Of a stretch of DNA of 64,000 bases, positions 1 through 15,882 are shown one piece after another (position 1 is the first letter of the stretch; each line of letters starts with the position of its first letter). A program made the translations under genes and the position numbers. The DNA comes from Fictibacillus marinisediminis (GTDB lineage: Bacteria > Bacillota > Bacilli > Bacillales > Fictibacillaceae): NCBI RefSeq assembly GCF_023149135.1, contig NZ_JAIWJX010000002.1:1736001-1800000 (forward strand), given 5' to 3'. Under the pieces are notes generated by a model that searched no databases, was not told where the DNA came from, and was given only the letters and a program-made list of their open reading frames with translations.

Positions 1-474
1 AAGAACAAGGAGGATCGCACGGAGTTCCTTTCCTTGTTGAGCACGGTTCAAAAGGGAGACTCCATTGTTGTCTCAAAATTAGATCGCTTTGCACGTTCCA
101 CAAAGGACGCTCTCACGGTCATTGAGGAACTTGAGGAGAAGGGAGTCTCACTTGTGGTTCTCAACATGGGAGGAGACAAATTAGACACTTCAACCTCAAT
201 GGGAAAACTTATGGTCACAATGTTGAGCGGGATAGCGGAATTTGAACTCTCACTAATCAAGGAGAGACAACGGGAAGGAATTGCTCTTGCTAAACAAAGA
301 GGAGTTTACAAGGGAAGACCACAAAAGTACACGGTGAAGAACAAAGGTCTCCAACATGCTTTTGAATTGTATGACAATAGAGACAACAATGGAAAGACCG
401 TGAAAGAGATTTGTACAATAACGGGAATTAGTAAAGCCACGTTTCACCGCAAGTTAAGGGAGAGGTCACAATGA
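1..474 (+). CDS. Serine recombinase (resolvase/invertase family), 5' end cut by window
   Basis: The frame is open from base 1, so the gene starts left of the window and its N-terminal catalytic serine cannot be seen. The visible part matches the resolvase/invertase fold: a DRFARSTKD motif, then VIEELEEKGVSLVVL, a GKLMVTMLSGIAEFE segment, the ERQREGIALAKQRG basic linker and a C-terminal HTH (VKEICTITGISKATFHRKL). Such enzymes cut DNA through a serine and resolve plasmid or transposon multimers or invert segments. It sits at the left of an AT-rich accessory element. It is small (resolvase size), so it need not be the integrase that targeted the tRNA at 10709; that enzyme is probably off-window. 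Family confidence is high. Confidence 0.88.
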   Translation, partial: KNKEDRTEFLSLLSTVQKGDSIVVSKLDRFARSTKDALTVIEELEEKGVSLVVLNMGGDKLDTSTSMGKLMVTMLSGIAEFELSLIKERQREGIALAKQRGVYKGRPQKYTVKNKGLQHAFELYDNRDNNGKTVKEICTITGISKATFHRKLRERSQ

Positions 475-811: not shown

Positions 812-815
812 AGGA

Positions 816-850
816 GATAAACAAGTAATAGATAAACAAGTAATAGATAA
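816..850. repeat. AT-rich tandem repeat, two perfect 15-bp units
   Basis: GATAAACAAGTAATA is repeated perfectly at 816-830 and 831-845, and a third copy begins at 846. It immediately follows the last iteron-like unit and could serve as a DNA-unwinding segment. Confidence 0.7.
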
Positions 851-1153: not shown

Positions 1154-1182
1154 TTGTGTTGTCTTCCTTGTACTACTATATT
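1154..1182 (+). promoter_or_regulatory. Possible sigma-A promoter
   Basis: TTGTGT (1154-1159), a 17-base spacer, and TATATT (1177-1182). No protein gene follows, but a strong terminator lies about 190 bases downstream. The two together could bound a small RNA. Confidence 0.35.
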
Positions 1183-1188
1183 TTCAAA

Positions 1189-1402: not shown

Positions 1403-1683
1403 GTCATAATAATAGACTTTTCTTTGTCTTCTTTCGTCTAAAATTCGTCCATTCTGAAAGCCTAAAGCCTAAGTAAAACAAGACTAATTATCAAATGTGT
1501 TTATCTAAAATTACATTGGGTTGTGCGGAGTGGGTCATAGCTGCTTATAAGGTAGAGGATAAGTAAGCACAAACTTATTCTCATTCCATTGGAGGACTTG
1601 GAGAGGGGACGCTCTTTCCTGTTCTTCTCCTTATTTTTTATAGTGAATGTAATTCTTAATAAACACATTTAAGAGAGGAATGA

Positions 1684-1932
1684 ATGAACGTGGAAAGACC
1701 ATTGACGAAAAAGGAAGTACGGGCAATACGTCTTGTACTTGGAGTAATGCAAGGTGAGTGGGGAGATATGCTCGGGTTCTCTAAGTCTCATATTTTAAGA
1801 ACGGAACAAGCTAACAAACACTCATATGAAGTTTCAACAAAATTTGACCAAGCGGTGAAATATAAGTTGAAGCAAATGGGGGTCAAACTTGAAGAAGTCT
1901 TGGAGATTGCAAGAAAGAGAGGTTTGTTGTAA
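1684..1932 (+). CDS. Small XRE-like helix-turn-helix protein
   Basis: 82 aa. The segment around residues 15-45 (LGVMQGEWGDMLGFSKSHI) has the spacing of an XRE/Cro-type helix-turn-helix. The C-terminal half is helical and basic. An AGAGAGG ribosome site lies just before the ATG. The stop overlaps the next start (TAATG at 1930-1934), so it opens a tightly coupled set of small genes. Likely a DNA-binding regulator of the element; its target is unknown. Confidence 0.6.
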   Translation: MNVERPLTKKEVRAIRLVLGVMQGEWGDMLGFSKSHILRTEQANKHSYEVSTKFDQAVKYKLKQMGVKLEEVLEIARKRGLL

Positions 1933-2051
1933 TGAGAATTTTACGTATTTTGATTGAGTTGTATGACCGTTCACACCACCCAAAGGAACGAGCGGAAATT
2001 ATTAAAATAATTAAAGAACATATGGAAAGGGAGATTGAAAATGGCAAATAA
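1932..2051 (+). CDS. Small protein of 39 aa, unknown function
   Basis: The ATG overlaps the previous stop (TAATG) and the frame runs past the start of the next gene at 2041, so it is sandwiched by overlaps that imply translational coupling. The product begins MRILRILIELYDRSHHPKER and ends in a charged helix (EIIKIIKEHMEREIENGK). No family was recognised. Placement between two coupled genes, rather than composition, is the main support. Confidence 0.5.
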   Translation: MRILRILIELYDRSHHPKERAEIIKIIKEHMEREIENGK

Positions 2052-2742
2052 GGAATTGCAAAAACTAAAAAAACAAATTGAAGACTTGCAAATAAATGTG
2101 AAGGAGATTGATTTTCAAGTTGCTGGTTTGAGAGAAAAAGCGGGTTCATTAAGACGTGAACGTTATGAACTCATGAAGAACTTTGTGGAGAACAAAAAAG
2201 AAGTGTTTGAGAAAGACGCACAAGAAAATGAATGTTGGGACAATGTAAGATCACTCACTCAAATGAAAGAAGAACTTGAAGAGCAGCTGGAAGCACAAAA
2301 AGTTGAGATTGTTGAAAAAGCGGTTCAATTAAGACATGAGACACACTTGGAGTTAACGGTTGAGGGAAATAAAGTCACTCAAGAACTTACACGTAAACGC
2401 TTTGAGTATCTCATGGAACTTGAGATAGCGGTAAAGGAAGCAAACGCAAAGTCTCAAGAAGCATTAACGGAAATTGACTTGTTTATCCTTGCTCATGGAA
2501 ATGCTCACCAAAAGAAAACCGCAAATGCAAACAATAGAAATGTTGTTGACACGGGATACGGTAGAGCTGCAATGCCTTCTCATATGGTCGGTTTAGAAGA
2601 TTACCGTTTATTATTCCACGAGGAGTCTCAACAAAACTTCACATTCCTTCTATTTAAACTTACGGGTGAAATTGAGTTCGGCGGAACGGAAGCCCAAAAG
2701 AAATACCGTGAAGCAATTCAAAAGAAAGGAAGTAAGAAGTAA
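2041..2742 (+). CDS. Coiled-coil protein, unknown function
   Basis: 233 aa from the ATG at 2041, which has GGGAG eight bases upstream; a TTG at 2035 is in frame but lies too close to that site. The first ~150 residues are heptad-rich and highly charged (KELQKLKKQIEDLQ onward), consistent with a long coiled coil. The C-terminal ~80 residues are less charged, with a GYGRAAMPSHMVGLEDYR segment that looks globular. No family was recognised. The stop overlaps the next start (TAATG, 2740-2744). Its neighbours suggest a structural or DNA-handling role within the element. Confidence 0.6.
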   Translation: MANKELQKLKKQIEDLQINVKEIDFQVAGLREKAGSLRRERYELMKNFVENKKEVFEKDAQENECWDNVRSLTQMKEELEEQLEAQKVEIVEKAVQLRHETHLELTVEGNKVTQELTRKRFEYLMELEIAVKEANAKSQEALTEIDLFILAHGNAHQKKTANANNRNVVDTGYGRAAMPSHMVGLEDYRLLFHEESQQNFTFLLFKLTGEIEFGGTEAQKKYREAIQKKGSKK

Positions 2743-3038
2743 TGGAAAACAATAATGAATACAAAAAGACTCATGAAATTGAAATTAAACCACGGGATAC
2801 AAAACATCTTGATCTCTTACGTGAAGGTTATGGAGAGCAAAAGGACTTCAAAGAAGTTGACGGGAAAGAGGTTTCCAAAGGTGAGGAGAACGTGGAACTT
2901 ACGGACGAGGAGAAAGCACTTCTTGAGAGTGACGAGGACTCTTTGAGCCATGCTCTCAAACTCCGTCTTGGATACTTAAAATGGAGACTTGAACAAGACA
3001 AGAAACTTGAGAACGACAATGACAACGGTGGTGAGTAA
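2742..3038 (+). CDS. Acidic small protein, unknown function
   Basis: 98 aa, strongly acidic, with Glu/Asp-rich stretches (VELTDEEKALLESDEDS) and an acidic Asn/Gly tail. It starts at an ATG overlapping the previous stop, and the next gene begins one base after its own stop. Acidic proteins in this kind of cassette sometimes act as DNA mimics or chaperones, but nothing specific supports that here. Confidence 0.55.
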   Translation: MENNNEYKKTHEIEIKPRDTKHLDLLREGYGEQKDFKEVDGKEVSKGEENVELTDEEKALLESDEDSLSHALKLRLGYLKWRLEQDKKLENDNDNGGE

Positions 3039-3039
3039 T

Positions 3040-3531
3040 ATGAGTAACATTCAACCAAGGGAGGACAATGTTCCTTCCTTGTCTTCGTATGATGAACGCT
3101 TGGAGGAATTTGAGAACATTCCATTAGATAATCCAAAATACTCCACGTTACCAATGAGACAACGTCAAATGTGTTTAATGTATGTTCTCAAGGATCAAAC
3201 GGGAATGACCGCAAAGGAAATAGCGGAGAAGTTTGAAATTTCCCGCACAATGCTTTACAAGTTTTTGAGAAAATATGAAGCACAAATGTTTATGCACGAG
3301 GTCTCAAATCAAATCTTATCGGAAACATTCACAATTGCGGTACTTGAAATGAAAAAGATACTAAAAACTTCTCATAGTGAGTCCAACAAAATTAAAGTTA
3401 TTGAAATGATTATGAAAACACAAGGGAAGTTCAAGAATGAACTTGACGTAAATGTGAAGCAAGAACACGTCTTTGACCTTGAAAAAGAAAAACGTGAAAT
3501 CATTGAGATTGACGTTGATGAAATTGAGTAA
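3040..3531 (+). CDS. HTH protein resembling phage terminase small subunits (phBC6A51 type)
   Basis: 163 aa from the ATG at 3040, just after the previous stop; GGTGGTGAG serves as ribosome site. Residues ~45-75 form a helix-turn-helix (TAKEIAEKFEISRTMLYKFL) of the kind seen in small terminase subunits and transposase N-termini. It is followed by a helical region and an acidic tail (EKREIIEIDVDEIE). No large terminase subunit is in the window, so packaging is unproven. It could equally be a regulator or partition protein. It ends the five-gene coupled run starting at 1684. Confidence 0.5.
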   Translation: MSNIQPREDNVPSLSSYDERLEEFENIPLDNPKYSTLPMRQRQMCLMYVLKDQTGMTAKEIAEKFEISRTMLYKFLRKYEAQMFMHEVSNQILSETFTIAVLEMKKILKTSHSESNKIKVIEMIMKTQGKFKNELDVNVKQEHVFDLEKEKREIIEIDVDEIE

Positions 3532-3560
3532 AGGGTTCCTCTTTTGGGAGCCTTTTATTT
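3530..3560 (+). terminator. Intrinsic terminator
   Basis: AAAGGGTTCC (3530-3539) pairs with GGGAGCCTTT (3546-3555) with one mismatch, followed by a T-rich tail. It closes the operon starting at 1684. Confidence 0.65.
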
Positions 3561-3589
3561 TTGCGAACCTTCTTACTTTTTGTAAGTTG
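3561..3589. promoter_or_regulatory. Candidate operator, CTTAC-TTTTT-GTAAG with TTGCG upstream
   Basis: A 5-bp inverted repeat CTTAC/GTAAG around TTTTT, followed by TTG. A second copy lies at 563-589 (CTTAC TTTTC GTAAG TTG), and both are preceded within about ten bases by TTGCG-N-AC. Each copy follows a terminator and leads a new segment, so they may be binding sites for one of the element's small HTH proteins. Confidence 0.35.
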
Positions 3590-3618
3590 GAATAAGACAA
3601 AGGAGGAGAAGAAATCCA

Positions 3619-3720
3619 ATGGAATTTTTATTATTTGTGCTAACGTATTTATTTTTGTGGAACTCGGGTTCTCAACAAAGCAAAATGATTGAATGTTTAA
3701 TTACGAAACTAGGAGGTTGA
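3619..3720 (+). CDS. Predicted 33-aa membrane peptide
   Basis: An excellent ribosome site (AGGAGGAG at 3601-3608) precedes ATG at 3619. The product starts MEFLLFVLTYLFLW, one hydrophobic helix, followed by a short polar tail (NSGSQQSKMIECLITKLGG). Its end encodes AGGAGG, the ribosome site of the next gene at 3725, which points to coupling. Function unknown. Such peptides can be type I toxins or phage membrane peptides; nothing here decides. Confidence 0.5.
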   Translation: MEFLLFVLTYLFLWNSGSQQSKMIECLITKLGG

Positions 3721-3724
3721 TCGT

Positions 3725-4356
3725 TTGGACGCAATTAATCAAAAGATTGTATCAATGTATGAACACGGAGCAAGTCACAAAAAATTGCTTCCGAGATTGG
3801 TCTTTCAATTTCTTCCGTGTACGAACGTATTGTTAAATTGAAAGATAAAGGAATACTTCAACCACGACAAACGCCAAAAGGTAATTGTGTACTTGACCTC
3901 ACATTCTCAAAACTAGAACTTGAGTTGTCTTACGTCACGGTTCCCAAAGTTGACATTATATCTTGTGATAAAGACATGAATCATTTAATCATAGAAGTTC
4001 AAGACAATAATGGCTTGAGAGCAACGTTAAAGTACCCTCTTGACGATCTTGAGGAAGAACTTGTTTCAACTCTTGGAAAGAGAATCTTGGAGGACGTAAA
4101 GGACGTTGAATGGACACCTCACATTGACGCTAGGAAGATTAAAACCGAGGAACAAGATTTGAAATACATTGGATCACGGTCTTTGCAATACTTTGTGGAA
4201 GGTTATAATTTAACGTTTATTCAAGGTTTCATAAAATACAAGAGACCTATTACAAGAAAATTTGTAAATATTTACAAGGATAATGTTCACCGTGTTGTCC
4301 ACGAGGACGTTGTGAATGATTATGGTTTTGTATTAAAGGTAAAAGATATAAATTGA
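3725..4356 (+). pseudogene. HTH regulator-like gene broken by a one-base deletion in an A run
   Basis: TTG at 3725 has AGGAGG (3711-3716) at ideal spacing. The first 18 codons end in ...YEHGASH and then reach six A (3779-3784). With seven A the frame would continue without a break as HKKIASEIGLSISSVYERI, a clean helix-turn-helix, and then 180 more residues to 4356 (about 210 aa in total). As written, the first frame stops near 3841. The downstream part has an ILQPRQTPKGNC linker and a mixed alpha/beta C-terminal domain not recognised. It is either an assembly error, a recent mutation, or a gene needing slippage; six A is short for programmed slippage. Confidence 0.7.
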
Positions 4357-4380
4357 GCCTTCGGCTCGTTGCTTTGCAAC
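4355..4380 (+). terminator. Two adjacent perfect hairpins after the HTH gene
   Basis: GAGCC-TTC-GGCTC (4355-4367) directly abuts GTTGC-TTT-GCAAC (4368-4380). The T tract that follows is poor (AATCTTTTAATT), so termination is plausible but weak; mRNA 3'-end protection is an alternative. Confidence 0.5.
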
Positions 4381-4506
4381 AATCTTTTAATTACAAGGAT
4401 CAACATAATTAAAAACTATGTTCTGTTTAACAACTTCTATCTTGTGTTGTGACTTTATTGTGGGGTTGTATTGGGACGCATATAGAAGCCTTATAAGTAT
4501 GAGGAA

Positions 4507-4537
4507 ACATGAGAGTAAAAATCTCGTGTTTTTTTTT
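4507..4537 (+). terminator. Intrinsic terminator in the leader of the 4593 gene
   Basis: ACATGAGA (4507-4514) pairs with TCTCGTGT (4522-4529) around GTAAAAA, followed by a run of T to 4537. It lies about 55 bases before the next start codon and over 100 bases after the previous hairpins, so it could act as an attenuator of the downstream genes rather than a simple operon end. Confidence 0.7.
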
Positions 4538-4592
4538 ATTGTTAAAGACTTTATTGGGTAGTCAATTTAAAACAAAAAGGAGAGAAATTATT

Positions 4593-4832
4593 ATGAAAAT
4601 CAACTTCACAATTGAAAAGATCGAAACGTTTATGAAGGAGTTCCAGTTAAACACAAGGGAACTTGGAGACTTACTTGGGTTTCACAAGGACTATATTGCT
4701 CGTATTTTACGTGGAGAAAAAGCAATAAGTCATAATGTTCAAGTTAAATTGAATCGTTTGTATGAGGAATTTACGAGTGTTGAGAACTTCAAAAACCGCA
4801 TGTCAAAACTTAATGAGAACATGAACAAATAA
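4593..4832 (+). CDS. Small XRE-family HTH protein
   Basis: 79 aa. The ATG at 4593 is chosen because AAGGAGAG sits at correct spacing; upstream in-frame codons lie inside the terminator hairpin. Residues ~15-50 (LNTRELGDLLGFHKDYIARI) form a typical XRE helix-turn-helix. It is followed closely by the winged-helix gene at 4855 and may control it. Confidence 0.65.
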   Translation: MKINFTIEKIETFMKEFQLNTRELGDLLGFHKDYIARILRGEKAISHNVQVKLNRLYEEFTSVENFKNRMSKLNENMNK

Positions 4833-4854
4833 AAGAAAGAGAGGAGAAGAACCA

Positions 4855-5790
4855 ATGGAACTTATTATTTATCACCACCTATTCCACACGGAAAATAAGA
4901 ATAGACTTACAACGCAAGAATTGTTCTTGTATACGCAATTGAGAAAAAGAAACATGTCAAACGGAGTCCTTGAGACCTCATTGGACATTCTTTCAAAGAG
5001 AGTAATCTTGTATAAAAAACCAAGACGAAACAAGGAAGTAATTAAGGAACTTCTTGTGAATTTACAAAAAAAGAAAGTGATTAAGTTTGAAGAAGAAAAC
5101 GGAGTTATTGACATTGAATTTTACTTTTGTGAGGAACCATTTATAAAACTTCCTTCACAATGGCTTGATCTTATTGAGAGTCCCGAGGAATTATATCTTG
5201 TCGCTTTTATCATGAGTGCAAAGCACAAGAGAAGATCAATGCCATTTGCCTTTATTGGTGAAGTCCTTAATGTGAGCACCAACACCGCACAAAATGTTGT
5301 CAAAGGATTGGTTGAACGTGGATTGCTTCATAAGAAGACGGGAGAGAAGATTTTTAACCATGAACGTGAAGCAAACACTTACACGCTCCAAAGTATCTCA
5401 CATGAGAGTTATGAGAGACCACAAGAGAGTTACGTTGAGGAGATCGAATCCCCGCAAGACACAAAGCCTTTAAAGGAATATAAACCCGCTAAAATAGACT
5501 TGATACAAAAGAAAGGAACAAAAACTCCAAAAGACTTCTTCCTTGAACAACAAGAATCCATTCCAATTGAGAAAAAAGAAACTCCAAAAAGATCAGCTGC
5601 TGAAATTCTAGCGGAGCAAGAGAAACCTGAAAATAACATTGTTGAGAAGACAAAAAAAGAACCAAGGAAAATCTCCGATAGTGCAATAGAGAAAAATCCA
5701 TGGTTAAAGAGGTACCAAAAGAAAGCTGAACAAAAAGAGATTGTTGAAAAGAGAGAAGAAACAATTGAACCCGTGGAAAGGGTTTTTTAA
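4855..5790 (+). CDS. Winged-helix replication-initiator-like protein
   Basis: 311 aa, with an AGAGAGGAG ribosome site. The N-terminal ~180 residues look like two winged-helix units: TTQELFLYTQLRKRNM...SLDILSKRV and later PFAFIGEVLNVSTNTAQNVVKGLVERGLL. This is the layout of DnaD-like or plasmid Rep proteins. Residues ~190-311 are a low-complexity, Lys/Glu/Pro-rich tail, probably disordered, ending NPWLKRYQKKAEQKE. With the iteron-like repeats at 646-811 it could be the element's replication protein. The Rep assignment is inference from fold and context. Confidence 0.45.
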   Translation: MELIIYHHLFHTENKNRLTTQELFLYTQLRKRNMSNGVLETSLDILSKRVILYKKPRRNKEVIKELLVNLQKKKVIKFEEENGVIDIEFYFCEEPFIKLPSQWLDLIESPEELYLVAFIMSAKHKRRSMPFAFIGEVLNVSTNTAQNVVKGLVERGLLHKKTGEKIFNHEREANTYTLQSISHESYERPQESYVEEIESPQDTKPLKEYKPAKIDLIQKKGTKTPKDFFLEQQESIPIEKKETPKRSAAEILAEQEKPENNIVEKTKKEPRKISDSAIEKNPWLKRYQKKAEQKEIVEKREETIEPVERVF

Positions 5791-5849
5791 TTTGCCTTCA
5801 TTAAATATAACAACACTGGGAGTATCGTGTGACCTAAATCAAAATAATT

Positions 5850-5876
5850 GAGTTTCCTAAAAAGGAGACTCTTTTT
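5850..5876 (+). terminator. Intrinsic terminator
   Basis: GAGTTTCC (5850-5857) pairs with GGAGACTC (5864-5871) with one wobble, then five T. It separates the replication-like genes from the HEPN cluster. Confidence 0.75.
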
Positions 5877-5936
5877 ATTGGATTAAATTGGTTATTGGGT
5901 TACAATTTTTTCATAAAAAGAATGTGGAGGAAGCAC

Positions 5937-6662
5937 ATGACCATAAATGTTCAAGTTCAAAACTATATTTTTGTTATGAGGAATTTACAAGACTCGATTA
6001 ACCAATTACAAGGTGAACAGTATCTAGAGAATCACAAGAAAACATTACTTTTTAGTTTACTAGAAACACTATCAAAAGGAGTTTTTGGAACAGAAAGGAA
6101 TTTTGTAAAGTTTGAAAGACTAATTAGGGAGTTTTGTGTGTGGGAAGACGGAAAAAGGGTAAGTTTACAACAATTATCATTACTCTTGGAGAGAACAGAA
6201 GAACGAGGATTTGAGACATTAAAAAGTTATGTTGAAGCTAATTTATCACGTTATCCAATGTCTAGACCCGTTCCATTTACCCATGATCCTTATATTGAAG
6301 AAATAAGGGAATACATGCCTGAGGGAATTCAAAAGATTAATGGTGTTAAATTGGAACAATTAACTCACGTGAGTCTATTGTGGAAGTATCGAAATGGTTT
6401 GGTACATGAAGCAAGAGGACTTGGTGCTAACGAATTGTTTGATGAAGTTGAACCTCATTATATATTTTACAGAGCAATAGGATACGATACCGAGGGGGAA
6501 ATAGCCTATAAAAAATATTGGCAAAAGTTATATCCATTACACTTTTTAAACGATCTTATAAATCAAGTAATCACAAATATAGAACCTTATTTGATTCAAA
6601 ACGGAATTGATCCATATGATAATTATAACTTTGAACCATTATGGATTGAGGGGAGGAATTAA
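5937..6662 (+). CDS. HEPN-like protein with Rx4H motif
   Basis: 241 aa from the ATG at 5937 (GGAGG at 5926). Predominantly helical. Near residues 147-160 it has LLWKYRNGLVHEAR, in which R152-N-G-L-V-H157 fits the Rx4-6H signature of HEPN RNases (known family trait: toxin or Abi nucleases cutting RNA). Its stop overlaps the start of the membrane protein at 6662 (TAATG), so the two are translationally coupled. A defence or toxin role is inferred from motif, coupling and location in a mobile element. A non-catalytic HEPN scaffold is the alternative. Confidence 0.55.
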   Translation: MTINVQVQNYIFVMRNLQDSINQLQGEQYLENHKKTLLFSLLETLSKGVFGTERNFVKFERLIREFCVWEDGKRVSLQQLSLLLERTEERGFETLKSYVEANLSRYPMSRPVPFTHDPYIEEIREYMPEGIQKINGVKLEQLTHVSLLWKYRNGLVHEARGLGANELFDEVEPHYIFYRAIGYDTEGEIAYKKYWQKLYPLHFLNDLINQVITNIEPYLIQNGIDPYDNYNFEPLWIEGRN

Positions 6663-7348
6663 TGAAAACCTTTCTAATTACAATTTTAACAAGCGGAATT
6701 ACAAGTGGAATTGTTTTAGGTTTATACCGACATTTTTTAAGTAGAAATATAGAAAGTTACAAGAATACTTTACTATATGACTTGCAAAGAAAGGTTCATG
6801 ATTTTCAGTTATTTGCAGCAAAGAAACATGAAAAATATGCAGATTTGTATAGTACATTACATGTGGCAACGGACGAATTATTAAATTTTACAAGTTGGTT
6901 TAAAGAATATCCTTCATTTCAAGGTTACACAGAAAAAGAATTAGATAATTATTTAGAGCAACATAATCTTATTCAAACACACAAATCAAGAATAAAATCA
7001 TTATGGGAATCAGACAAATGGGCAATGCAATCAGAATTACATAAAATTATTGATTGGAATAAACGTTCGGAAGCAGATAGATTGAGGTTAATTGCTTACC
7101 AAAATTATTCACAATCACTAATTTATCAATCTAAAGACGTTGCAAAAATATGTGAAGAAATAACACAAAAACATGTGGAACTCATACTAGATTTTGACTT
7201 ACTTAATGAGTTGGAACCAAATGAAAAGAAGGAAGTAAGAAAAAAGATTGAAAGTCACAAAAATGAACTTCGTACTTTAAGGGAGGAATTACATAAAGTA
7301 ATGCAATCGGAATTGACTATAGGATACTATGAAAAATCCAATGAATAA
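6662..7348 (+). CDS. Membrane-anchored helical/coiled-coil protein
   Basis: 228 aa. One N-terminal membrane helix (about residues 3-22, FLITILTSGITSGIVLGLY) is followed by a basic edge and ~200 cytosolic residues, mostly charged helices. It overlaps the HEPN-like gene before it by one base and faces a second HEPN gene across a shared terminator. A decayed copy of its 3' half lies at 8243-8528. It may be a sensor or anchor for the HEPN partner; no family was recognised. Confidence 0.55.
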   Translation: MKTFLITILTSGITSGIVLGLYRHFLSRNIESYKNTLLYDLQRKVHDFQLFAAKKHEKYADLYSTLHVATDELLNFTSWFKEYPSFQGYTEKELDNYLEQHNLIQTHKSRIKSLWESDKWAMQSELHKIIDWNKRSEADRLRLIAYQNYSQSLIYQSKDVAKICEEITQKHVELILDFDLLNELEPNEKKEVRKKIESHKNELRTLREELHKVMQSELTIGYYEKSNE

Positions 7349-7350
7349 AA

Positions 7351-7379
7351 AAGAGGAGCCATTGCGGTTCCTCTTTTTT
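7351..7379. terminator. Bidirectional terminator between convergent genes
   Basis: AAGAGGAGCC (7351-7360) pairs with GGTTCCTCTT (7366-7375), one wobble, flanked by A and T runs so that it works in both directions. A related hairpin lies at 8540-8562 in the duplicated copy. Confidence 0.75.
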
Positions 7380-8134
7380 CTATTTGGCGACTTCTTTAAT
7401 TGGTAAGTGTTTTTCAAGCACTTCAAAGGTTGCTTTGATACTTCTAAGCAGACCAATCATAGCTGCTTTTATTTCACTTGAGGTAGTATACTTTCCTACA
7501 CCCCATAATTCAATTCCATTTATTTTTCTTATTCCAGAATCTATACGGTATGGAGGGTGATTGTGTGCAATATCATTTCGCATTTTTACCCCAATTTTGA
7601 AGTCATCAGATTTTTTACTTTGTTGAGGTCTTTATACAATGGACGGTTCACATTTTTTAATTTGTAAATTGCTCTCTTAAAACTCACAAAGTCATCTTCT
7701 TTGATTTTAAAGTCATAAAGTTTGAACAACAAATGTCCAATTGTTTCATACAATGTGTAAGCCTTTAGAAAGAAGGTGTCCACAAAGTAAGTGAAATTGT
7801 AAAAGTTACTATGGTGTTGTTCTTCAAAGTGAGGGTAGTATTCAATTGATTGACCGTTTTTCCCAGGTGACTTATGCCATTCATCATCTGGAATCCCTTT
7901 GTAATAGTAATACATTGTGTAACCAAAATTTCGATTCACCGAGAGCAACCTATTCCCCAAAATAGTTTCCCAATGTTGTGTGTCCCAATTATCTAAGTTC
8001 ATAAAATGATCGTCTTCTTTTTGAAACATTCCTTTGGATACTTCAAAGTCCTTCAACGGACTCTCCTTTGTACACTCATTGAGATCAACTTCTGTAATTC
8101 CTTCAAATGGTTTGATATTGATTTTTCTCTCCAT
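7380..8134 (-). pseudogene. HEPN-family gene (Cthe_2314-like), frameshifted copy
   Basis: The ATG at 8134 has GGGGAGAAA upstream. The product is clearly paralogous to the intact gene at 8561-9310 (shared YYYKGIPD, FFLKA, NVNRPL/NVDRPL, AMIG-LRSIKAT). At a six-T run on the + strand (7611-7616, six A in the gene) the frame shifts: the first part ends at 7586 as NKVKNLMTSKLG, while the other frame continues as MRNDIAHNHPPYRI to 7380. One extra A would restore the full protein. The break removes the RNDIAH (Rx4H) putative active site. The T6 could be a sequencing error, a loss-of-function mutation or an on/off switch. Confidence 0.75.
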
Positions 8135-8242
8135 GTTTCTCCCCATTTCATTTAAATTTATTACTTTAATGATAAGGGAACAACCTAATTTATTCCATGG
8201 AAGTCACACATTCTCCTAAATGTTGTTACTCTAAATATGAAG

Positions 8243-8528
8243 GGCGGATAAATTAAGATTGATTGCTTATCAAAACTATTCACAATCACTTCTCTATCAA
8301 TCAAAAGAGGTTTCAAAATTTGTGAAGACATAACAAAAATACATGTCCACCTTATTTTAGATCATGATTTATATAGAGACGGAACCAACTGAATAGAAAG
8401 AGGTTAGGGAACGAATTAAAATTCACAAAGAGAACCTTCGATTATTACGGGAGGAATTATATAAAGTAATGCAATCTGAATTAACTGTCGGATTCTATGA
8501 GAAGTTAAAAGATAAAGCAGATAATTAA
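8243..8528 (+). pseudogene. Decayed 3' remnant of a 6662-type membrane protein gene
   Basis: The DNA parallels 7070-7348: GCGGATAAATTAAG, TATTCACAATCACT, a GGGAGGAATTA segment and AAAGTAATGCAATC recur in order. The reading frame carries at least two shifts and an in-frame TGA, and no 5' half or start is present. It is the partner remnant of the intact HEPN gene that faces it, showing a past tandem duplication of the gene pair. Confidence 0.75.
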
Positions 8529-8539
8529 AGTATGAAAAA

Positions 8540-8562
8540 AGAGGAGCCTTTGTGGTTCCTCT
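8540..8562. terminator. Hairpin between remnant and HEPN gene
   Basis: AGAGGAGCC (8540-8548) pairs with GGTTCCTCT (8554-8562). It is paralogous to 7351-7379, with an A run before and a T-rich stretch after. Confidence 0.65.
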
Positions 8563-9310
8563 AATTTTTTGTTTCAAAATGTTTTCCTAATACGTCTAGT
8601 GTTGCTTTAATACTTCTCAAAATCCCAATCATTGCTTCCTTTAACTCTTTGGAAGTTGTATATTCTCCAATTCCAAATGAACCCCCACTTGTTGTGATTT
8701 TTACTCCCGAACTTATTTCATATGGAGGGTGACTATGTGTAATTGCGTTTCTTATTTTGACTCCGTTTTGAAAGTCATCTGACTTCTTTATTTTAGATAA
8801 TTTCTTTTGTAAAGGTCGGTCTACATTAAATAGTTTGAAAACAGCATTGTTATAACTTATTTGGTCACTATAATCCTCCTCATTGTATTCCAAGTTGTAA
8901 TATCTAAACAATATTTGTCCAATGGTTTCAAACACAGTAAAAGCTTTTAAAAAGAAGCCGTCCGCAAAGAAGATAAAATTATATTGGTTACTAAAATGTT
9001 CATTCGTAAAATATGGAAAGTATTGAACTGATTGACCTTGTAAGCCAGGAGAAAGAAACCATTTCTCGTCTGGTATTCCTTTGTAATAGTAGAACATTGC
9101 ATAAGCAAATTTTGAACGGGTTGAAAAAAGTCTATTCTCTAAAGTTTGTTCCCAATGTTGCATTTCACTATTTAAAAGGAATTGCCCTAATGTATTTTCT
9201 TGTTGGAAAAGACCACGAGGTAACTCGTAATTTAATAATGGACTTTCTTGCTCATTTTTCTCAAAGTCAACTTCCTTTATGTCTTCAAATGGTGTTATGT
9301 AGATTGTCAT
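8561..9310 (-). CDS. HEPN-family protein (Cthe_2314-like), intact copy
   Basis: 249 aa, ATG at 9310 with AAAGGAG upstream. Helical, aromatic-rich N-terminal region (AMFYYYKGIPDEKW), then the signature KIRNAITHSHPPYE, where R187-N-A-I-T-H192 is an Rx4H motif. The layout with a HSHPPY tail recalls the Cthe_2314-type HEPN family as I remember it. Such proteins are thought to be RNases. Paralogue of the broken gene at 7380-8134 and divergent from the membrane protein at 9434. Toxin or abortive-infection activity is inference. Confidence 0.6.
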   Translation of the reverse strand: MTIYITPFEDIKEVDFEKNEQESPLLNYELPRGLFQQENTLGQFLLNSEMQHWEQTLENRLFSTRSKFAYAMFYYYKGIPDEKWFLSPGLQGQSVQYFPYFTNEHFSNQYNFIFFADGFFLKAFTVFETIGQILFRYYNLEYNEEDYSDQISYNNAVFKLFNVDRPLQKKLSKIKKSDDFQNGVKIRNAITHSHPPYEISSGVKITTSGGSFGIGEYTTSKELKEAMIGILRSIKATLDVLGKHFETKN

Positions 9311-9375
9311 AAGTCGCTCCTTTCAAATGTTATATACAAATACTTCCACTCTATTTTTCTAGTTCCTTTAATAAC

Positions 9376-9405
9376 TTAACAAAATTTTACATATTTTGAT
9401 ATAAT
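9376..9405 (+). promoter_or_regulatory. Sigma-A-type promoter
   Basis: TTAACA (9376-9381), an 18-base spacer and a perfect TATAAT (9400-9405), about 30 bases upstream of the 9434 start. It drives the two membrane-protein genes. Confidence 0.55.
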
Positions 9406-9433
9406 GGTATAAAAAAGGATAAGGGTTACATAT

Positions 9434-10075
9434 ATGAAATTATTTCTCCAATACTTTGCAGGTCCATTGATCGCTGCTTTAATTACAACGGTTATACTTT
9501 GGTTTAAAGAAAGTAAGACAGAAAAGAAGAAACACCTTAATAATGTAACTTTTGAGCAACTTACAAAAGTGTACAATAAACTATTTATCTTGTATTACCA
9601 ATACAATTCTTCATTAGTAATTGAGTATAAAGAGGAAGTTTATAGTTTAGACGAGGAAGGAGAAGAACAAACAATTGAACTCCCGCATGTTGACAACATT
9701 GATTTTTGGGAGAAAGTCATTAAGGAAGTAAAGGATATTGTTTATCCAAATATACATTTGTTAATGCGAAAAGACGTTGTATTGTGGAATGAATTTCTTG
9801 AGTATGAATTGATTGAAGAACCAACTTCTTCACTTGATATTGTTCTTGGATACGAAAGGTTTAAGAAATTCTTTGGGGATATTTCTTTGAGTTACATTAA
9901 ACTTTACAATCAATATCATTTGGAAACGTCAAGTGTAAAAAAGAAAAGAAAGAAAGACTACAAGGGTAAATTGAAAAACATTAAGAGCAATCCATTTTAC
10001 TCCAAAGAGGAGAAGCGTAATAAAATTAAAAAGTTAAAACAAAAAGAACAAGAGACCATAAGTAAAATACTTTAG
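9434..10075 (+). CDS. Membrane-anchored protein with basic C-terminus
   Basis: 213 aa. One N-terminal membrane helix (about residues 5-24, LQYFAGPLIAALITTVILWF), then a Lys-rich edge, a helical cytosolic domain with acidic stretches (YSLDEEGEEQ) and a very basic tail (VKKKRKKDYKGK...KKLKQKEQE) that could bind nucleic acid or membrane. The architecture repeats that of the proteins at 6662 and 10086. Family and function unknown. Confidence 0.5.
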   Translation: MKLFLQYFAGPLIAALITTVILWFKESKTEKKKHLNNVTFEQLTKVYNKLFILYYQYNSSLVIEYKEEVYSLDEEGEEQTIELPHVDNIDFWEKVIKEVKDIVYPNIHLLMRKDVVLWNEFLEYELIEEPTSSLDIVLGYERFKKFFGDISLSYIKLYNQYHLETSSVKKKRKKDYKGKLKNIKSNPFYSKEEKRNKIKKLKQKEQETISKIL

Positions 10076-10085
10076 AGGTGGAGAA

Positions 10086-10583
10086 ATGGTAAAGGATACC
10101 CTAGCGTGGATAAATTCAAATGGTTGGATTGTATCTATTTTCACATTGGTACTAGGAGCCTATTTAAGTACGTTCCTAACAAAAAATAAAGAAGTCCTCA
10201 TGAAAATTGCAGATAAAAAAGGACAGTATTATGCGGATTACATAAATGCTTTGCTTCAATTTAATAAACCAATTCATTTAAGAGCAAGAGAACATGAAAT
10301 TATTAATACGAATAGAAATTATTTTTACTTAAAAAATCTTGTAATTTTGTATGGTTCAAATGAGGTCATTAAAAGACTTTCTATTTGTGAGAAAAACGGG
10401 ATAAATTTTAAAAAAGAAGAGGGAAGAGAAAGCTATCTTAAATTAATTGAAGCAATGAAAAAAGACATTGAAAATCCTAAAATTATTAGATCATGGTGGA
10501 TAAGAAGGATTGCGATGAACAACCGAAACAATAATATTGCCGACATTCTCTTTGATTATAAACAAGAAAGTGAAGAGGAATAA
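10086..10583 (+). CDS. Membrane-anchored helical protein with LYGSNEVIK motif
   Basis: 165 aa, GAGGTGGAG ribosome site ten bases after the preceding gene, so the two probably form an operon. One membrane helix (about residues 13-31, GWIVSIFTLVLGAYLSTFL) is followed by helices with NLVILYGSNEVIKRL, a pattern I associate with uncharacterised bacterial single-pass proteins having a cytosolic helical domain. It is the last gene of the element before the tRNA fragment. Confidence 0.5.
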   Translation: MVKDTLAWINSNGWIVSIFTLVLGAYLSTFLTKNKEVLMKIADKKGQYYADYINALLQFNKPIHLRAREHEIINTNRNYFYLKNLVILYGSNEVIKRLSICEKNGINFKKEEGRESYLKLIEAMKKDIENPKIIRSWWIRRIAMNNRNNNIADILFDYKQESEEE

Positions 10584-10708
10584 GTTACGACTTGCAAATT
10601 TTCATTGGACACTATACTGTAAAACTTGTACTAATTTACCGTTTAGAGTTCAATTAGGATTAAAACATTGATAGTCCGCATGTTTGTTGTATCAAGTGTT
10701 AAACAACT
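10584..10708. other. Right-end flank of the accessory element
   Basis: About 125 bases of AT-rich DNA between the last element gene and the tRNA fragment. No gene is seen; recombinase arm sites could lie here but none were recognised. Confidence 0.4.
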
Positions 10709-10755
10709 CCTTGACAGGGTAGAGGTCGGGGGTTCGAACCCCTCTCGGGTCACCA
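10709..10755 (+). other. 3' fragment of tRNA-Val(GAC): right attachment site (attR)
   Basis: The sequence reads as a tRNA from the anticodon loop onward: loop TTGACAG (10711-10717, anticodon GAC), stem GGTAG, variable AGGTC, T arm GGGGG-TTCGAAC-CCCTC (10728-10744), acceptor strand TCGGGTC, A, and encoded CCA (10753-10755). The upstream side (AACTCC) does not fit the required CTACC stem, and there is no D arm or 5' acceptor, so it is not a working tRNA. It marks where an element integrated in tRNA-Val left the displaced 3' end. Confidence 0.85.
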
Positions 10756-10773
10756 TAACAGTTTATTCAAAGT

Positions 10774-10794
10774 CCTTGATTTTCAAGGTTTTTT
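10774..10794 (+). terminator. Terminator of the original tRNA gene
   Basis: CCTTGA-TTT-TCAAGG (10774-10788) followed by six T, 19 bases after the CCA. It shows that the fragment is the true chromosomal end of a tRNA transcription unit. Confidence 0.75.
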
Positions 10795-10890
10795 GTGTTA
10801 CAGAGTATTAGTATTGCATTTTTATACTACAATAAATCGAAACACGTTAAAGGAAAAACGATTATCGTCTTTTCGTCAAATCGAAAGTCA

Positions 10891-10918
10891 AAAGGACAGC
10901 GAATTTCAGCTGTCCTTT
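10891..10918. terminator. Ten-base-pair hairpin without U tract
   Basis: AAAGGACAGC (10891-10900) and GCTGTCCTTT (10909-10918) pair perfectly. There is no T run on the + strand, so it may be a bidirectional stop for the minus-strand gene at 10995 or a simple palindrome. Confidence 0.4.
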
Positions 10919-10994
10919 CGTGATATTCTCTGCCATTATTGTTAGTGTCAAATTGGTCTACCTATGCACGAGAACCATCATGATCGCAATAAAT

Positions 10995-11243
10995 TCAGGT
11001 TCGCCCTTCAATGAACCAATTCTGAGACGGAGTCTTTTTGATAGAGTTTACGGAGTTTACGTCACAGCATTTAAATTTTACAATACTCCCATCAGCAATC
11101 TCTCCCGTAACAAGACCCTTATAAGAGTCATAATGTCTAAAGGTAATTTGAACCGATGTATCATGTAAACGAACAGTCACTTTGTTTCCCGATTTAAGTT
11201 GTTTAAATCGTTTACAAGTTTGTGAATGTTTTGAGGAATTCAT
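10995..11243 (-). CDS. Small basic protein, unknown function
   Basis: 82 aa, ATG at 11243 with AGAAGGTGG upstream. It contains KVTVRLHDTSVQITFRHYDSY and KGLVTGEIADGSIVKFKCCDV, alternating beta-type segments suggesting a small barrel (SH3- or OB-like), with several Lys/Arg. First gene right of the integration site. No family was recognised. Confidence 0.5.
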   Translation of the reverse strand: MNSSKHSQTCKRFKQLKSGNKVTVRLHDTSVQITFRHYDSYKGLVTGEIADGSIVKFKCCDVNSVNSIKKTPSQNWFIEGRT

Positions 11244-11360
11244 TTTTCAACCACCTTCTTAAAAATTAGAACTTGTACTTGTCATAGTTTATGCGTTCCG
11301 TTCATTGTTGGTTTGGACGGGCAGCAAAATTTGGACAAATACACGTTTGTAAACATGAAT

Positions 11361-11397
11361 GAAGCTGATCTTAAAGGGTATTTCAGCTTCTTTTTTT
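11361..11397 (+). terminator. Intrinsic terminator
   Basis: GAAGCTGA (11361-11368) pairs with TCAGCTTC (11383-11390) around a 14-base loop, then seven T. There is no + strand gene just upstream, so it guards the downstream gene or ends an unannotated transcript. Confidence 0.6.
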
Positions 11398-11484
11398 GCG
11401 CTTAACCAGTCCTCTTTAATGGTGTCCCGCCGTTTTTTTCTGTATTGTTGAGGGAAACATAAACAGAAAGAAAGGATGATAGTT

Positions 11485-12516
11485 TTGAGCGGAAAAATGA
11501 AGGCGGTAGGTTTGTATAAGTATTTGCCGATTGATAATCCTGAGAGTCTGTTAGATGTAGATATTGATAAACCATCTCCAGGTAAAAGAGATCTTCTCGT
11601 AAAAGTAAAAGCAATCTCTGTTAATCCTGTTGATACGAAAGTGCGCAGCCCGAAAAACGCCTTAGAAAAGGAACCGAAAATTCTTGGCTGGGATGTTTCA
11701 GGCATTGTGGAAGAGACGGGTTCTGGTGTAAGTATGTTTAAAGCTGGAGATGAAATATATTACGCTGGTTCCATTGGAAGGCCAGGAGGAAATAGTGAAT
11801 TCCATCTTGTGGATGAACGTATTGCGGCCCATAAACCAAAAACGTTCAGCTTTGAAGAAGCTGCCGCAATGCCGCTCACAAGCCTTACAGCCTGGGAAGG
11901 ATTATTCGAACGTCTCGGTATTGCTACGAAGAAGGATGAAAATGAAGGTCGATCCATATTAATTATAGGTGCAGCCGGGGGAGTAGGTTCTATTGCGCTT
12001 CAGCTCGCAAGTTGGGCAGGATTGACCGTGGTTGGGACCGCCTCACGAGCAGAGACCGAAGTTTGGGCTAAAAAACATGGTGCGGACTATACAATCAGCC
12101 ATTATGCGGACTTTTTACCACAGCTGAATAAAATAGGGCTGTCTGAAGTGGATTACATTTTTTGTCTGAACAGTACCGATCAGCATTGGGAAAGGATGAT
12201 GGAAGCAATTGCTCCCCAAGGTAAGATTTGTTCGATTGTAGAAACGAAAACACCGCTGAACATAAGCTTACTTCAGCAGAAGAGTGTAACGTTTGTCATG
12301 GAATTCATGTTCACAAGATCGCTCTTTGAAACGAAGGATATGAAAAGGCAGCATGAGATTCTGACAGAGATGGCCCACATGTTCGATGAAGGGATATTAA
12401 AGACAACATTAACGGAAACACTTCAACCGATCCATGCAGAAACGATGAGAGATGCACATTCGAAATTAGAATCCGGTAAGACGATAGGAAAAGTGGTAGT
12501 AAGCCGCAATGAATAA
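11485..12516 (+). CDS. Zinc-type alcohol dehydrogenase / quinone oxidoreductase-like protein
   Basis: 343 aa. TTG at 11485 is preferred over ATG 11476, since GAAAGGA overlaps the latter. Medium-chain reductase: N-terminal GroES-like domain (ISVNPVDTKVRSP, GWDVSGIVEETG) and Rossmann domain with IIGAAGGVGSIALQLA near residue 155. Zinc-binding cysteines are lacking in the visible motifs, as in quinone oxidoreductase-type members. Likely NADPH-dependent reduction of enones, quinones or aldehydes; substrate unknown. Confidence 0.8.
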   Translation: MSGKMKAVGLYKYLPIDNPESLLDVDIDKPSPGKRDLLVKVKAISVNPVDTKVRSPKNALEKEPKILGWDVSGIVEETGSGVSMFKAGDEIYYAGSIGRPGGNSEFHLVDERIAAHKPKTFSFEEAAAMPLTSLTAWEGLFERLGIATKKDENEGRSILIIGAAGGVGSIALQLASWAGLTVVGTASRAETEVWAKKHGADYTISHYADFLPQLNKIGLSEVDYIFCLNSTDQHWERMMEAIAPQGKICSIVETKTPLNISLLQQKSVTFVMEFMFTRSLFETKDMKRQHEILTEMAHMFDEGILKTTLTETLQPIHAETMRDAHSKLESGKTIGKVVVSRNE

Positions 12517-12541
12517 ACCCTTCAGCTAGAAGGGTTTTTTT
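12513..12541 (+). terminator. Intrinsic terminator
   Basis: AACCCTTC and GAAGGGTT pair around AGCTA, followed by eight T, immediately at the stop of the oxidoreductase gene. Confidence 0.8.
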
Positions 12542-12607
12542 TGTTTTTTTAAGCTGTGAGAAGGGAATATTTTAAAAATCTAATATATAGTAAATGAAGA
12601 TGAAAGG

Positions 12608-13360
12608 ATGATGCAGTTGTTTAAGAATAAAGTTGTCATCGTTACTGGAGCAGGACAGGGAATTGGCAGGCAAATCGCCATTGATTTTGCGGCTGCGGGA
12701 GCAAAAGTGGTGCTGGCTGACCAAAAGGAAAAGGAAGCGAAAGAGACTTTGGAAAAGATACAGTCCAATAAAGGGAAAGCTCTTCTTATTCCAACAGATG
12801 TACGCCAGCCTGAAGATATTATCTCACTTATGGGGCAGACAAAAAGGGAATTTGGGCCAGTTGATATTCTGATCAACAATGCCGGCAAAGGGGTCTGGAA
12901 GTCTCCGTTCGATTTGGACGTGGAAGAATGGGATAATGTCATTCAAACCAATCTTCGAAGTGTATTTCTATGTTCGCGGGAAGCCGCAAAACAGATGAAA
13001 GAAAATGGGGGAGGCTCCATCGTTAATATCGCATCGACAAGAGCATCCATGTCAGAACCTAACAGTGAGGCATACGCGGCAACGAAAGGCGGCATAACAG
13101 CTCTCACTCATGCATTGGCCGCATCGTTCAGCGAACATGGCATTACGGTTAACGCCATCAGCCCAGGTTGGATTGAAACCCAAGACTATGAAGGTTTAAG
13201 AGATGTTGACCATCAACAGCATTGGTCAAAGAGGGTTGGAAAACCATCGGATATCTCTAGCGCCTGTTTATATTTAACAGCCCCTGACAATAACTTTATT
13301 AACGGTGAGAACCTGGTGATCGATGGTGGAATGACAAGAAAGATGATCTATCACCACTAA
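12608..13360 (+). CDS. SDR-family oxidoreductase
   Basis: Up to 250 aa. Classical short-chain dehydrogenase: VIVTGAGQGIGRQIA cofactor site at the N-terminus, INNAGKG, then SIVNIASTRAS with the catalytic YAATKGG (Tyr/Lys) and the SPGWIET loop, ending with the INGENLVIDGGM signature. FabG/glucose-dehydrogenase-like, using NAD(P)(H); substrate not predictable. The start may be the TTG at 12617 (AAAGGA spacing), giving LFKNKVVIV. Confidence 0.85.
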   Translation: MMQLFKNKVVIVTGAGQGIGRQIAIDFAAAGAKVVLADQKEKEAKETLEKIQSNKGKALLIPTDVRQPEDIISLMGQTKREFGPVDILINNAGKGVWKSPFDLDVEEWDNVIQTNLRSVFLCSREAAKQMKENGGGSIVNIASTRASMSEPNSEAYAATKGGITALTHALAASFSEHGITVNAISPGWIETQDYEGLRDVDHQQHWSKRVGKPSDISSACLYLTAPDNNFINGENLVIDGGMTRKMIYHH

Positions 13361-13448
13361 GATAGAATCGAACGGATGAATTCATCCAGTTAAGGAATGC
13401 TATACGTAGCCTTTTTTAGGTGAATGAAGAATAAGAGGGTGAGAGGCT

Positions 13449-14342
13449 GTGCCAGCTGAAAAGACACAGAGTAAAGTTGAGAGAGGGGTATATCTCAGTT
13501 TATCGGCATACATCGTCCTATCCCTGCTGAAGCTCGGGGTTGGCTGGTTCTATTCCTCTGAGGCTTTGGTTGCGGATGGTTTAAATAACTCAACGGACAT
13601 TTTGGCATCCGTCGCAGTTCTGGTCGGTTTGAAAATTTCAAGGAAACCAGCGGACCGTGACCATCCTTATGGACATCTTCGTGCTGAGACCATTGCATCC
13701 ATGATTGCATCCTTTATAATGGTGGTTATCGGGCTTGAAGTTTTTATTTCTGCAGTAAAGAGTATCGTGGAATTTAACATAAAGCCTCCATCAACCATAG
13801 CCGGGTTTACTGCCATTGTTTCAGCGTTTGTTATGCTTGCGGTCTACCGTTATAACATTAAACTTGCAAGAGAAACAGACAGCCAAGGGTTAAAGGCGGC
13901 AGCCCTTGATAACCGCTCCGATGCGTTTGTAAGTATCGGAGCGGCTGTTGGCATATTCGGAGCTCAGTTTGGCATTTTGTGGCTGGATCCTCTTGCTGCT
14001 GTGCTTGTGGCACTAATGATCATCAAAACCGGCTGGGATATTTTTTACGAAACCTCTCATAATCTTTCGGATGGTTTTGATTATGAAGAAGGAAAAGAGA
14101 TGGAAAAAAAGATCTTGCAGGTAATTGGTGTAAAGCAAGTAACAGACTTAAAAGCAAGAAATCATGGGAGTTCTGCTATTATTGATGTAACCATCCTTGT
14201 AAATCCTTCGCTGAATGTCATTGAAAGCCACGAGATCACTGAGAATATTGAAGCAATGCTCAAGCAGGCGTATAAAGTGGGAAGCATATCTGTTCATGTA
14301 GAGCCGCATGAGATGAAGAAAGAGGTAGAGAGAAATGAATGA
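13449..14342 (+). CDS. Cation diffusion facilitator (CDF) transporter
   Basis: 297 aa, GTG start. Multiple membrane helices; metal-site motifs ADGLNNSTDILAS in helix 2 and LDNRSDAFVS in helix 5, HPYGHLRAE between helices 2 and 3, and a C-terminal cytosolic regulatory domain. CDF proteins export divalent metals (Zn, Mn, Fe, Co) in exchange for protons. The two-Asp pattern with Asn in helix 2 differs from HxxxD zinc exporters, so the metal is uncertain. The stop overlaps the next gene's start by eight bases: an operon with the MFS exporter. Confidence 0.88.
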   Translation: MPAEKTQSKVERGVYLSLSAYIVLSLLKLGVGWFYSSEALVADGLNNSTDILASVAVLVGLKISRKPADRDHPYGHLRAETIASMIASFIMVVIGLEVFISAVKSIVEFNIKPPSTIAGFTAIVSAFVMLAVYRYNIKLARETDSQGLKAAALDNRSDAFVSIGAAVGIFGAQFGILWLDPLAAVLVALMIIKTGWDIFYETSHNLSDGFDYEEGKEMEKKILQVIGVKQVTDLKARNHGSSAIIDVTILVNPSLNVIESHEITENIEAMLKQAYKVGSISVHVEPHEMKKEVERNE

Positions 14343-15866: not shown

Positions 15867-15882
15867 TAGATTGATTCCTGGT

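Follow-up and report, generated by a model that had tools for sequence, protein, structure and literature searches.

Introduction

The locus described here, a cluster of HEPN-type and membrane-protein genes in Fictibacillus marinisediminis, is best read against what has been described of HEPN proteins and of abortive infection (Abi). As far as the accessible text of Anantharaman et al., 2013 (PMC3710099) goes, six HEPN families have been assigned to lactococcal Abi proteins, fusions of HEPN domains with membrane helices have been described, and AbiV typically lacks the histidine of the Rx4H motif; the table in the same text gives 'None detected' as the associations of the Cthe_2314 family and none for AbiV. 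The available portions of two other papers report remote HEPN similarity in 6 of 21 validated systems (PMC9519451) and, for PdpSau, a transmembrane (TM) helix at residues 5-27, a cytoplasmic C-terminus and an OB-like fold (PMC10127798). In the literature that we searched, largely without subscription papers and without the motif described below as a query, there was no HEPN gene with a separate single-pass membrane partner.

The window, that is, the whole stretch of DNA that was analysed, comprises 64,000 nucleotides (positions 1736001-1800000 of contig C2 in our genome, G000). The cluster is AT-rich, with a GC content of about 0.31-0.33 at 5-11 kb against 0.38-0.45 from 12 kb onward. Genes are named here by their lowest coordinate (Table 1), and the membrane proteins encoded at 6662, 9434 and 10086 are called TM1, TM2 and TM3. 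We believe, with a probability of about 0.5, that an integrative, plasmid-like element at tRNA-Val has its cargo end in this region, where several separate abortive-infection-type modules are stacked, one of them a two-gene unit of a HEPN-like protein (5937) and a membrane partner (TM1).

Results

The 5937 and TM1 genes recur together. Order-level genome searches scored only the best few candidates per genome, so that the counts from them are lower bounds. Among 397 genomes of the order, at least six carry relatives of 5937 (that in G360 being decayed) and at least eight carry relatives of TM1, which is close and intact in three (G000, G021 and G216), the other five matching at E 5.8e-34 or weaker. 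In all three genomes with a close intact TM1, our own included, a 5937 relative precedes it on the same strand, with no gene between them in G000 and G021 and a single gene in G216. The first-pass annotation of this DNA had named recurrence of HEPN genes with one-TM genes as a check on its reading, and such recurrence was found. G021 is Fictibacillus sp. BK138, where the pair was found by each gene independently (TM1 91% and the 5937 relative 61% identical); among the 34 genomes of the family, our own included, it is the only other one with adjacent relatives of both, and two more carry a distant TM1 alone. The one-base TAATG overlap that had been pointed out between the two genes is real and identical there. 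Moreover, window 5874-7376 forms one uninterrupted block in that genome (L021 10416-11928), adjoining TM2 and TM3 and inverted relative to the replication-type gene, which argues that the 5937+TM1 unit moves as one. A site-specific inversion is not claimed, since the inverted repeat flanking the unit (5869-5889 and 7335-7355, 71% over 21 bases) is one of 50 in the region. In G216, from another family, the 5937 relative, a gene of 124 amino acids (aa) and a TM1 relative (57%) stand in a row, and in G175 a TM2 relative starts 14 bases after the 5937 relative and runs for 58 residues at 71% before it is broken. These searches carry a bias, as the TM1 profile includes the G000, G021 and G216 sequences and the TM1 gene of G216 was first noticed beside its 5937 relative; the contribution of the order-wide TM1 profile search is that a close intact TM1 lacking a HEPN-like gene did not turn up elsewhere.

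Between the window and Fictibacillus, the ratio of nonsynonymous to synonymous substitution rates (dN/dS) is 0.22 for 5937, 0.09 for TM1, 0.07 for TM2 and 0.16 for TM3, and values this low indicate that all four are maintained as proteins. Constraint is weaker on 5937 than on TM1, and the higher dS of 5937 (1.20 vs 0.53) leaves room for allele exchange.

The 5937 protein matches nothing in Pfam, NCBIfam, PADLOC or PHROGs, libraries that contain only described families. In an alignment with six relatives (61, 49, 50, 37, 27 and 28% identical to 5937), the motif RNxLxHExR is invariant in all seven sequences, and 6 of the 22 invariant columns fall inside these nine residues, as happens in 0.9% of random placements (permutation p 0.009). 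The Nitrospirales relative came from a DNA scan with two patterns, one of them the motif, and the other relatives were found via tblastn or a profile. The Rx4-6H spacing of the HEPN superfamily is present throughout (7/7, one member coming from the motif-type scan), and the RNxLxHExR proteins are a HEPN-like family missing from all four profile libraries searched. Rx4H alone is not specific, being found also in an integrase-like ORF (open reading frame) of L076; R[NH]xxxH occurs in 1 of the 40 ORFs of at least 150 aa in the chromosomal part of the window. Judged by its sequence, 5937 is likely to be a HEPN-type protein. The Rx4H motifs listed by the first-pass annotation are all present, namely RNGLVH in 5937, RNAITH in 8561 and RNDIAH in the broken copy at 7380-7583, and its assignment of these proteins to the HEPN type stands, by PF18730, for 8561 and for the broken copy, but is only probable for 5937, which lacks a profile match. 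Relatives of 5937 were absent from viral contigs, and phage records held none of it or of its Nitrospirales relative; plasmid records held one, on a Halomonas plasmid, where it lies near mercury-resistance genes.

The three membrane-helix proteins proposed earlier were borne out by hydropathy, each having an N-terminal hydrophobic helix with a basic C-terminal side. The best 19-residue Kyte-Doolittle means are 1.82 for TM1 (residues 3-21), 1.88 for TM2 and 1.79 for TM3, all within the first 31 residues, and the 15 residues after the helix contain 3, 5 and 5 lysines or arginines, respectively, which suits a cytosolic C-terminal part. By composition only, TM1 is thus predicted to share the anatomy of AbiP and PdpSau, a single N-terminal TM helix with a cytoplasmic C-terminal part, and in its model a four-helix bundle follows the N-terminal helix. 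We rejected the grouping of TM1, TM2 and TM3 into one superfamily, as pairwise profile probabilities were 0.3-0.6% (with only 2 sequences for TM2). TM1 and four relatives match no MNT nucleotidyltransferase Pfam family at E up to 1 and no antitoxin Pfam family. TM3 relatives occur in at least 6 of the 397 genomes (one at 5.7e-4) and TM2 relatives in at least 6 of 299 (one a fragment and three weak with stops). Viral contigs gave no TM1 relative with a single-sequence query, three distant ones with the TM1 profile and one TM3 relative; plasmid records held no relatives of TM1, TM2 or TM3, and phage records none of TM1 or TM3. A general rule of HEPN neighbours was rejected for the distant TM1 relatives, an Rx4H ORF lying within 3 kb in 1 of 9; the distant relative in G360 (L049) stands two genes ahead of a DUF3644/PDC-S64-like ORF with RNNIIH (Pfam match below cut-off). 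Those at L022, L023 and L036 lie in prophage-like loci near, by eye, small integrase and terminase genes.

The protein encoded at 8561 is, by profile, certainly a HEPN protein of the HEPN_Cthe2314 family (102.9 bits against a cut-off of 27.1) and is predicted to be a ribonuclease (RNase); the R187 and H192 of its motif, which has the Rx4-6H spacing, are invariant in six of six aligned sequences, and all six aligned members are matched by PF18730. The window holds two Cthe_2314 copies, 49-56% identical, one of them broken. Window 7073-7931 aligns with 8244-9113 over 894 bases at 68% identity, so a unit made of the TM1 3' end, a hairpin and a facing Cthe_2314 HEPN gene was doubled in an old tandem duplication. 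The first copy pairs a whole TM1 with a broken HEPN gene, the second a TM1 fragment containing three stops with a whole HEPN gene, and the same junction in G257 (82.6% over 962 bases to window 7310-8240) joins a truncated TM1 to a whole HEPN gene. One facing gene is therefore damaged at all three junctions of this kind (7348/7380, 8507/8561 and L047 3799/3836), which makes it unlikely that TM1 and the facing Cthe_2314 HEPN protein need each other.

The Cthe_2314 HEPN gene is present in at least 8 of the 397 genomes (two at E 5e-4 and 7e-4; one with an internal stop), and Fictibacillus G021 has none. Phage homologues at about 53% identity occur in 9 of 50,697 records, all from Bacillus phages named SPbetaL8, Goe11, phi3T or phi3T hybrids, the three that were fetched being listed as Spbetavirus; plasmid matches occur in 6 of 72,556 records (three from Staphylococcus and one each from Mammaliicoccus, Desulfosporosinus and Leptospira), and viral contigs hold no relatives. 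The tblastn searches beside the gene covered 6 of these 15 records from phages and plasmids (two of the phage loci reaching the record end on one side) and the loci of G141, G035, G038 and G270, and found no relative of TM1, TM2, TM3 or 5937. From its absence in G021 and from these lone loci, we conclude that the Cthe_2314 HEPN gene travels without the other cluster genes. On a Mammaliicoccus lentus plasmid, a homologue lies near tet(M) (L013 532-4744). The first-pass annotation had described membrane and HEPN genes facing each other across shared terminators and had read the cluster as a single defence system of putative membrane sensors and RNase effectors. The hairpins are indeed there, at 7348/7380 and 8540-8562, but the second facing membrane gene proved to be only a decayed TM1-type fragment, and a single cluster-wide system is not supported, because the Cthe_2314 HEPN gene is absent from G021 and alone at the other loci examined, and distant TM1 relatives occur without 5937.

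Relatives of the membrane genes are found in defence-type company. In G404, an AbiV gene (PF18728, 2.4e-36) is followed, one base past its stop, by a TM3 relative read from the ATG that aligns with its relatives; from an earlier ATG, this relative would overlap the AbiV gene by 17 bases. On an IMG/VR contig, a TM3 relative is separated by 342 bases from DUF4297 and HerA genes downstream of it (L083 4055-7733), and the TM3 relatives in G179 and G226 have no Rx4H neighbour. In G216, TM1 is faced by a PDC-S32 gene (7.7e-80; AbiJ_NTD4 below cut-off; L033 7387-8289). The pair there is preceded by a 534-aa ORF (L033 3807-5411) that contains RNNYLHE and what looks by eye like a hydrophobic stretch at its C-terminus.

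The mobile element suspected from the start was confirmed by attachment (att) repeats at tRNA-Val together with an integrase. The 51 bases spanning the 3' end of the intact tRNA-Val(GAC) at C2:1720370 are repeated at C2:1746709, at the end of the cluster, and a further copy at C2:1731907 covers 48 bases at 98%. Three copies imply two elements in tandem, the cluster being the right end, as cargo, of the second, which is ~14.9 kb long. Tyrosine integrase genes adjoin two of the three copies, and the window's element thus has the att direct repeats at a tRNA 3' end and the integrase by which integrative elements are recognised, its integrase being split into two overlapping frames (L007 15071-15778 and 15669-15977). 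It also encodes a small serine recombinase and a gene with a weak replication-initiation match (Table 1). A 37-base direct repeat (97%; window 646-682 and 775-811) near the serine recombinase gene is a candidate res site or iteron. Window 1-20000 had no Rfam match, and plasmid records had no DNA match to window 5700-10900. In the neighbouring element at the same tRNA-Val, L007 12310-14687 encodes a protein that PADLOC matches to a TIR-type effector (8.4e-13; Nuc_deoxyrib_tr below cut-off), followed by a 461-aa ORF with RNNIAH, for which Pfam gave nothing above cut-off.

Table 1. Features of the cluster and its surroundings, in window coordinates.
Feature	Position	Strand	Evidence
Small serine recombinase; gene starts upstream of the window (L007 18891-19475)	1..474	+	PF00239, 4.9e-43
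Replication-initiation-like/winged-helix protein, element backbone	4855..5790	+	weak phrog_391 match, E 0.0016; 59% homologue in Fictibacillus element
Terminator-like hairpin ahead of the 5937+6662 pair	5850..5871	+	terminator scan
HEPN-like protein, 241 aa, RNGLVHEAR at residues 152-160	5937..6662	+	no library match; RNxLxHExR invariant 7/7
TM1, 228 aa, N-terminal membrane helix and predicted four-helix bundle; one-base overlap with 5937 gene	6662..7348	+	hydropathy, model, pair recurrence
Hairpin between convergent genes	7349..7379	.	read directly in the sequence; absent from the terminator scan, which lists the duplicate at 8540-8562
Downstream piece of broken Cthe_2314 HEPN gene (RNDIAH)	7380..7583	-	88% to intact G257 gene; PF18730 15.1 bits, below cut-off
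Upstream piece of broken Cthe_2314 HEPN gene	7586..8146	-	PF18730 7.4e-19, 68.8 bits; 83% over 174 residues to intact G257 relative
Decayed 3' fragment of second TM1 gene	8241..8507	+	60% to TM1 residues 137-226; 2 TAG and 1 TAA
Terminator-like hairpin between TM1 fragment and facing HEPN gene	8540..8562	+	terminator scan
Intact HEPN_Cthe2314 protein, 249 aa, RNAITH	8561..9310	-	PF18730 2.6e-29; about 53% in SPbeta-group phages
Promoter-like site ahead of TM2	9376..9405	+	weak: 24 such sites in region vs 24.2 expected from shuffles
TM2, 213 aa, N-terminal membrane helix, very basic tail (net +13, last 50 residues)	9434..10075	+	hydropathy; 84% in Fictibacillus
TM3, 165 aa, N-terminal membrane helix	10086..10583	+	hydropathy; relatives near AbiV and DUF4297-HerA
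Right att core, 51 bases, tRNA-Val(GAC) 3' end	10709..10759	+	repeated at C2:1720370 and C2:1731907

Discussion

We propose the following model for the stacked modules. In module 1 (5874-7376), the probable HEPN RNase 5937 would be translationally coupled to the membrane-anchored helical protein TM1, which would hold 5937 at the inner membrane face and keep it in check. Phage entry or takeover may then disturb the contact between the two, and the freed HEPN dimer would cut RNA and stop the infected cell. Module 2 would be a stand-alone Cthe_2314 HEPN RNase (8561), with its duplicate at 7380-8146 broken, and module 3 a membrane-protein pair (TM2 and TM3) whose relatives can lie behind other HEPN genes. 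We argue for a joint function of 5937 and TM1 because their junction is conserved and they move as a block, and for catalysis by 5937 because the R, N, H, E and R of the motif are conserved. A defence role of the region is likely, given that it is mobile and that its genes or their relatives keep company with AbiV, PDC-S32, DUF4297-HerA and, in the neighbouring element, the TIR-type match.

Several observations weigh against this model. No HEPN profile in Pfam matches any of the seven members of the 5937 family (best chance match 0.033), the family profile has no match in the PDB, and its comparison with the Cthe_2314 relatives aligned 15 columns at the motif with a probability of 0.7%. The structure model of 5937, with a predicted local distance difference test score (pLDDT) of 39.2, is poor, and although it places the motif in a helix ahead of a hairpin and a final helix, as would suit HEPN, this carries no weight; the motif of the Nitrospirales relative is not independent evidence, as the pattern scan may include it. 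In the flanks examined, the 5937 relatives of G075, a Nitrospirales metagenome-assembled genome (MAG) and the Halomonas plasmid have no relative of TM1, TM2 or TM3, and in G175 a broken TM2 takes the place of TM1, which indicates that the TM1 partner is not obligatory and that 5937-type proteins can manage without it or use another. Conversely, none of the nine distant TM1 relatives (20-33% BLAST identity) has a 5937 neighbour, and only one of the four TM3 relatives examined outside G000 and G021 lies behind a recognised HEPN gene. Across the seven cluster ORFs, the only PADLOC match is one between TM1 and SP_VI (E 0.023), which amounts to noise, and in the literature searched we found no experiment on the cluster genes.

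The same pair could instead serve maintenance as a toxin-antitoxin system, with 5937 as HEPN toxin and TM1 as membrane-tethered antitoxin, the unit retaining the element rather than acting against phages. An overlapping two-gene operon on an element with its own recombinase and replication-type genes (the latter a weak match) would fit this, as would a partner conserved at 91% against 61% for the HEPN-like protein. However, a strict toxin would be intolerable in G075, the Nitrospirales MAG and the Halomonas plasmid, where 5937 relatives lack TM1, TM2 and TM3 in the flanks examined, unless another antitoxin is present, and TM1 matches no antitoxin family in Pfam; we regard this explanation as unlikely. 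Alternatively, the roles might be reversed, with TM1 as an effector that damages the membrane or blocks phage replication in the manner of AbiP and PdpSau, and the HEPN-like protein as its regulator. The anatomy of TM1 is like that reported in the available part of the PdpSau paper (TM 5-27, cytoplasmic C-terminus; PMC10127798), the tail of TM2 is strongly basic, and distant TM1 relatives occur without a HEPN-like gene, some in prophage-like loci with integrase and terminase genes recognised by eye. TM1 itself, however, has a net charge of -3 after the helix and is modelled as a four-helix bundle, not as the OB-like fold described there, and we consider such a reversal quite improbable. Finally, the cluster might be loose cargo, a set of unrelated accessory genes gathered at a tRNA-Val hotspot without any common function, and the motif of 5937 a coincidence or that of a non-catalytic HEPN protein. 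This would suit modules that come and go independently (the Cthe_2314 HEPN gene being absent from G021 and 5937+TM1 inverted), the decayed pieces and the occurrence of each family without the others, but is quite improbable in view of the block movement of 5937 and TM1, their company in three of three genomes with a close intact TM1, our own included, and a motif invariant in seven of seven sequences.

Should the model of stacked modules with a HEPN-membrane unit be true, Abi-type HEPN RNases would be accompanied by a partner gene of their own for a membrane-anchored protein, and this would offer a concrete and testable idea of how they are silenced and how they sense infection. It may even be, although we hold this only as a tentative and rather unlikely extension, that the kind is combinatorial, with unrelated HEPN effectors (the RNxLxHExR family and AbiV) swapped with unrelated one-TM partners (TM1, TM2 and TM3); the common principle would then be membrane anchoring by a separate, swappable gene, by analogy with the antitoxins of some toxin networks. 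For module 2, the presence of Cthe_2314 HEPN homologues in well-studied SPbeta-group phages such as phi3T, whose homologue is phi3T_201, makes the gene amenable to deletion there.

How does the locus compare with known systems? The 8561 protein is HEPN_Cthe2314 (PF18730) by profile and by its R187 and H192, and its solitary phage and plasmid loci agree with the 'None detected' of the published table as far as that source was accessible; what differs is that the gene is here duplicated, faces a membrane gene and has one copy broken. With HEPN/MNT (HepT/MntA) the unit shares the two-gene operon with a probable HEPN RNase, whereas the TM1 partner is a single-pass membrane protein that matches no MNT nucleotidyltransferase in Pfam. 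The AbiV gene of G404, with a TM3 relative directly behind it, shows the same kind of pairing, although 5937 has no AbiV match in Pfam and keeps the Rx4H whose histidine AbiV, in the accessible text of PMC3710099, typically lacks. AbiP and PdpSau likewise combine one N-terminal membrane helix with a cytoplasmic C-terminal part, but TM1 is modelled as a four-helix bundle where the portion available for PdpSau describes an OB-like fold, and it sits with a HEPN-like gene. Lastly, the HEPN-TM fusions described in the accessible text of Anantharaman et al., 2013 would, like the unit proposed here, place an RNase domain at the inner membrane face; in contrast to those fusions, the anchor and the HEPN-like domain are here encoded by separate genes.

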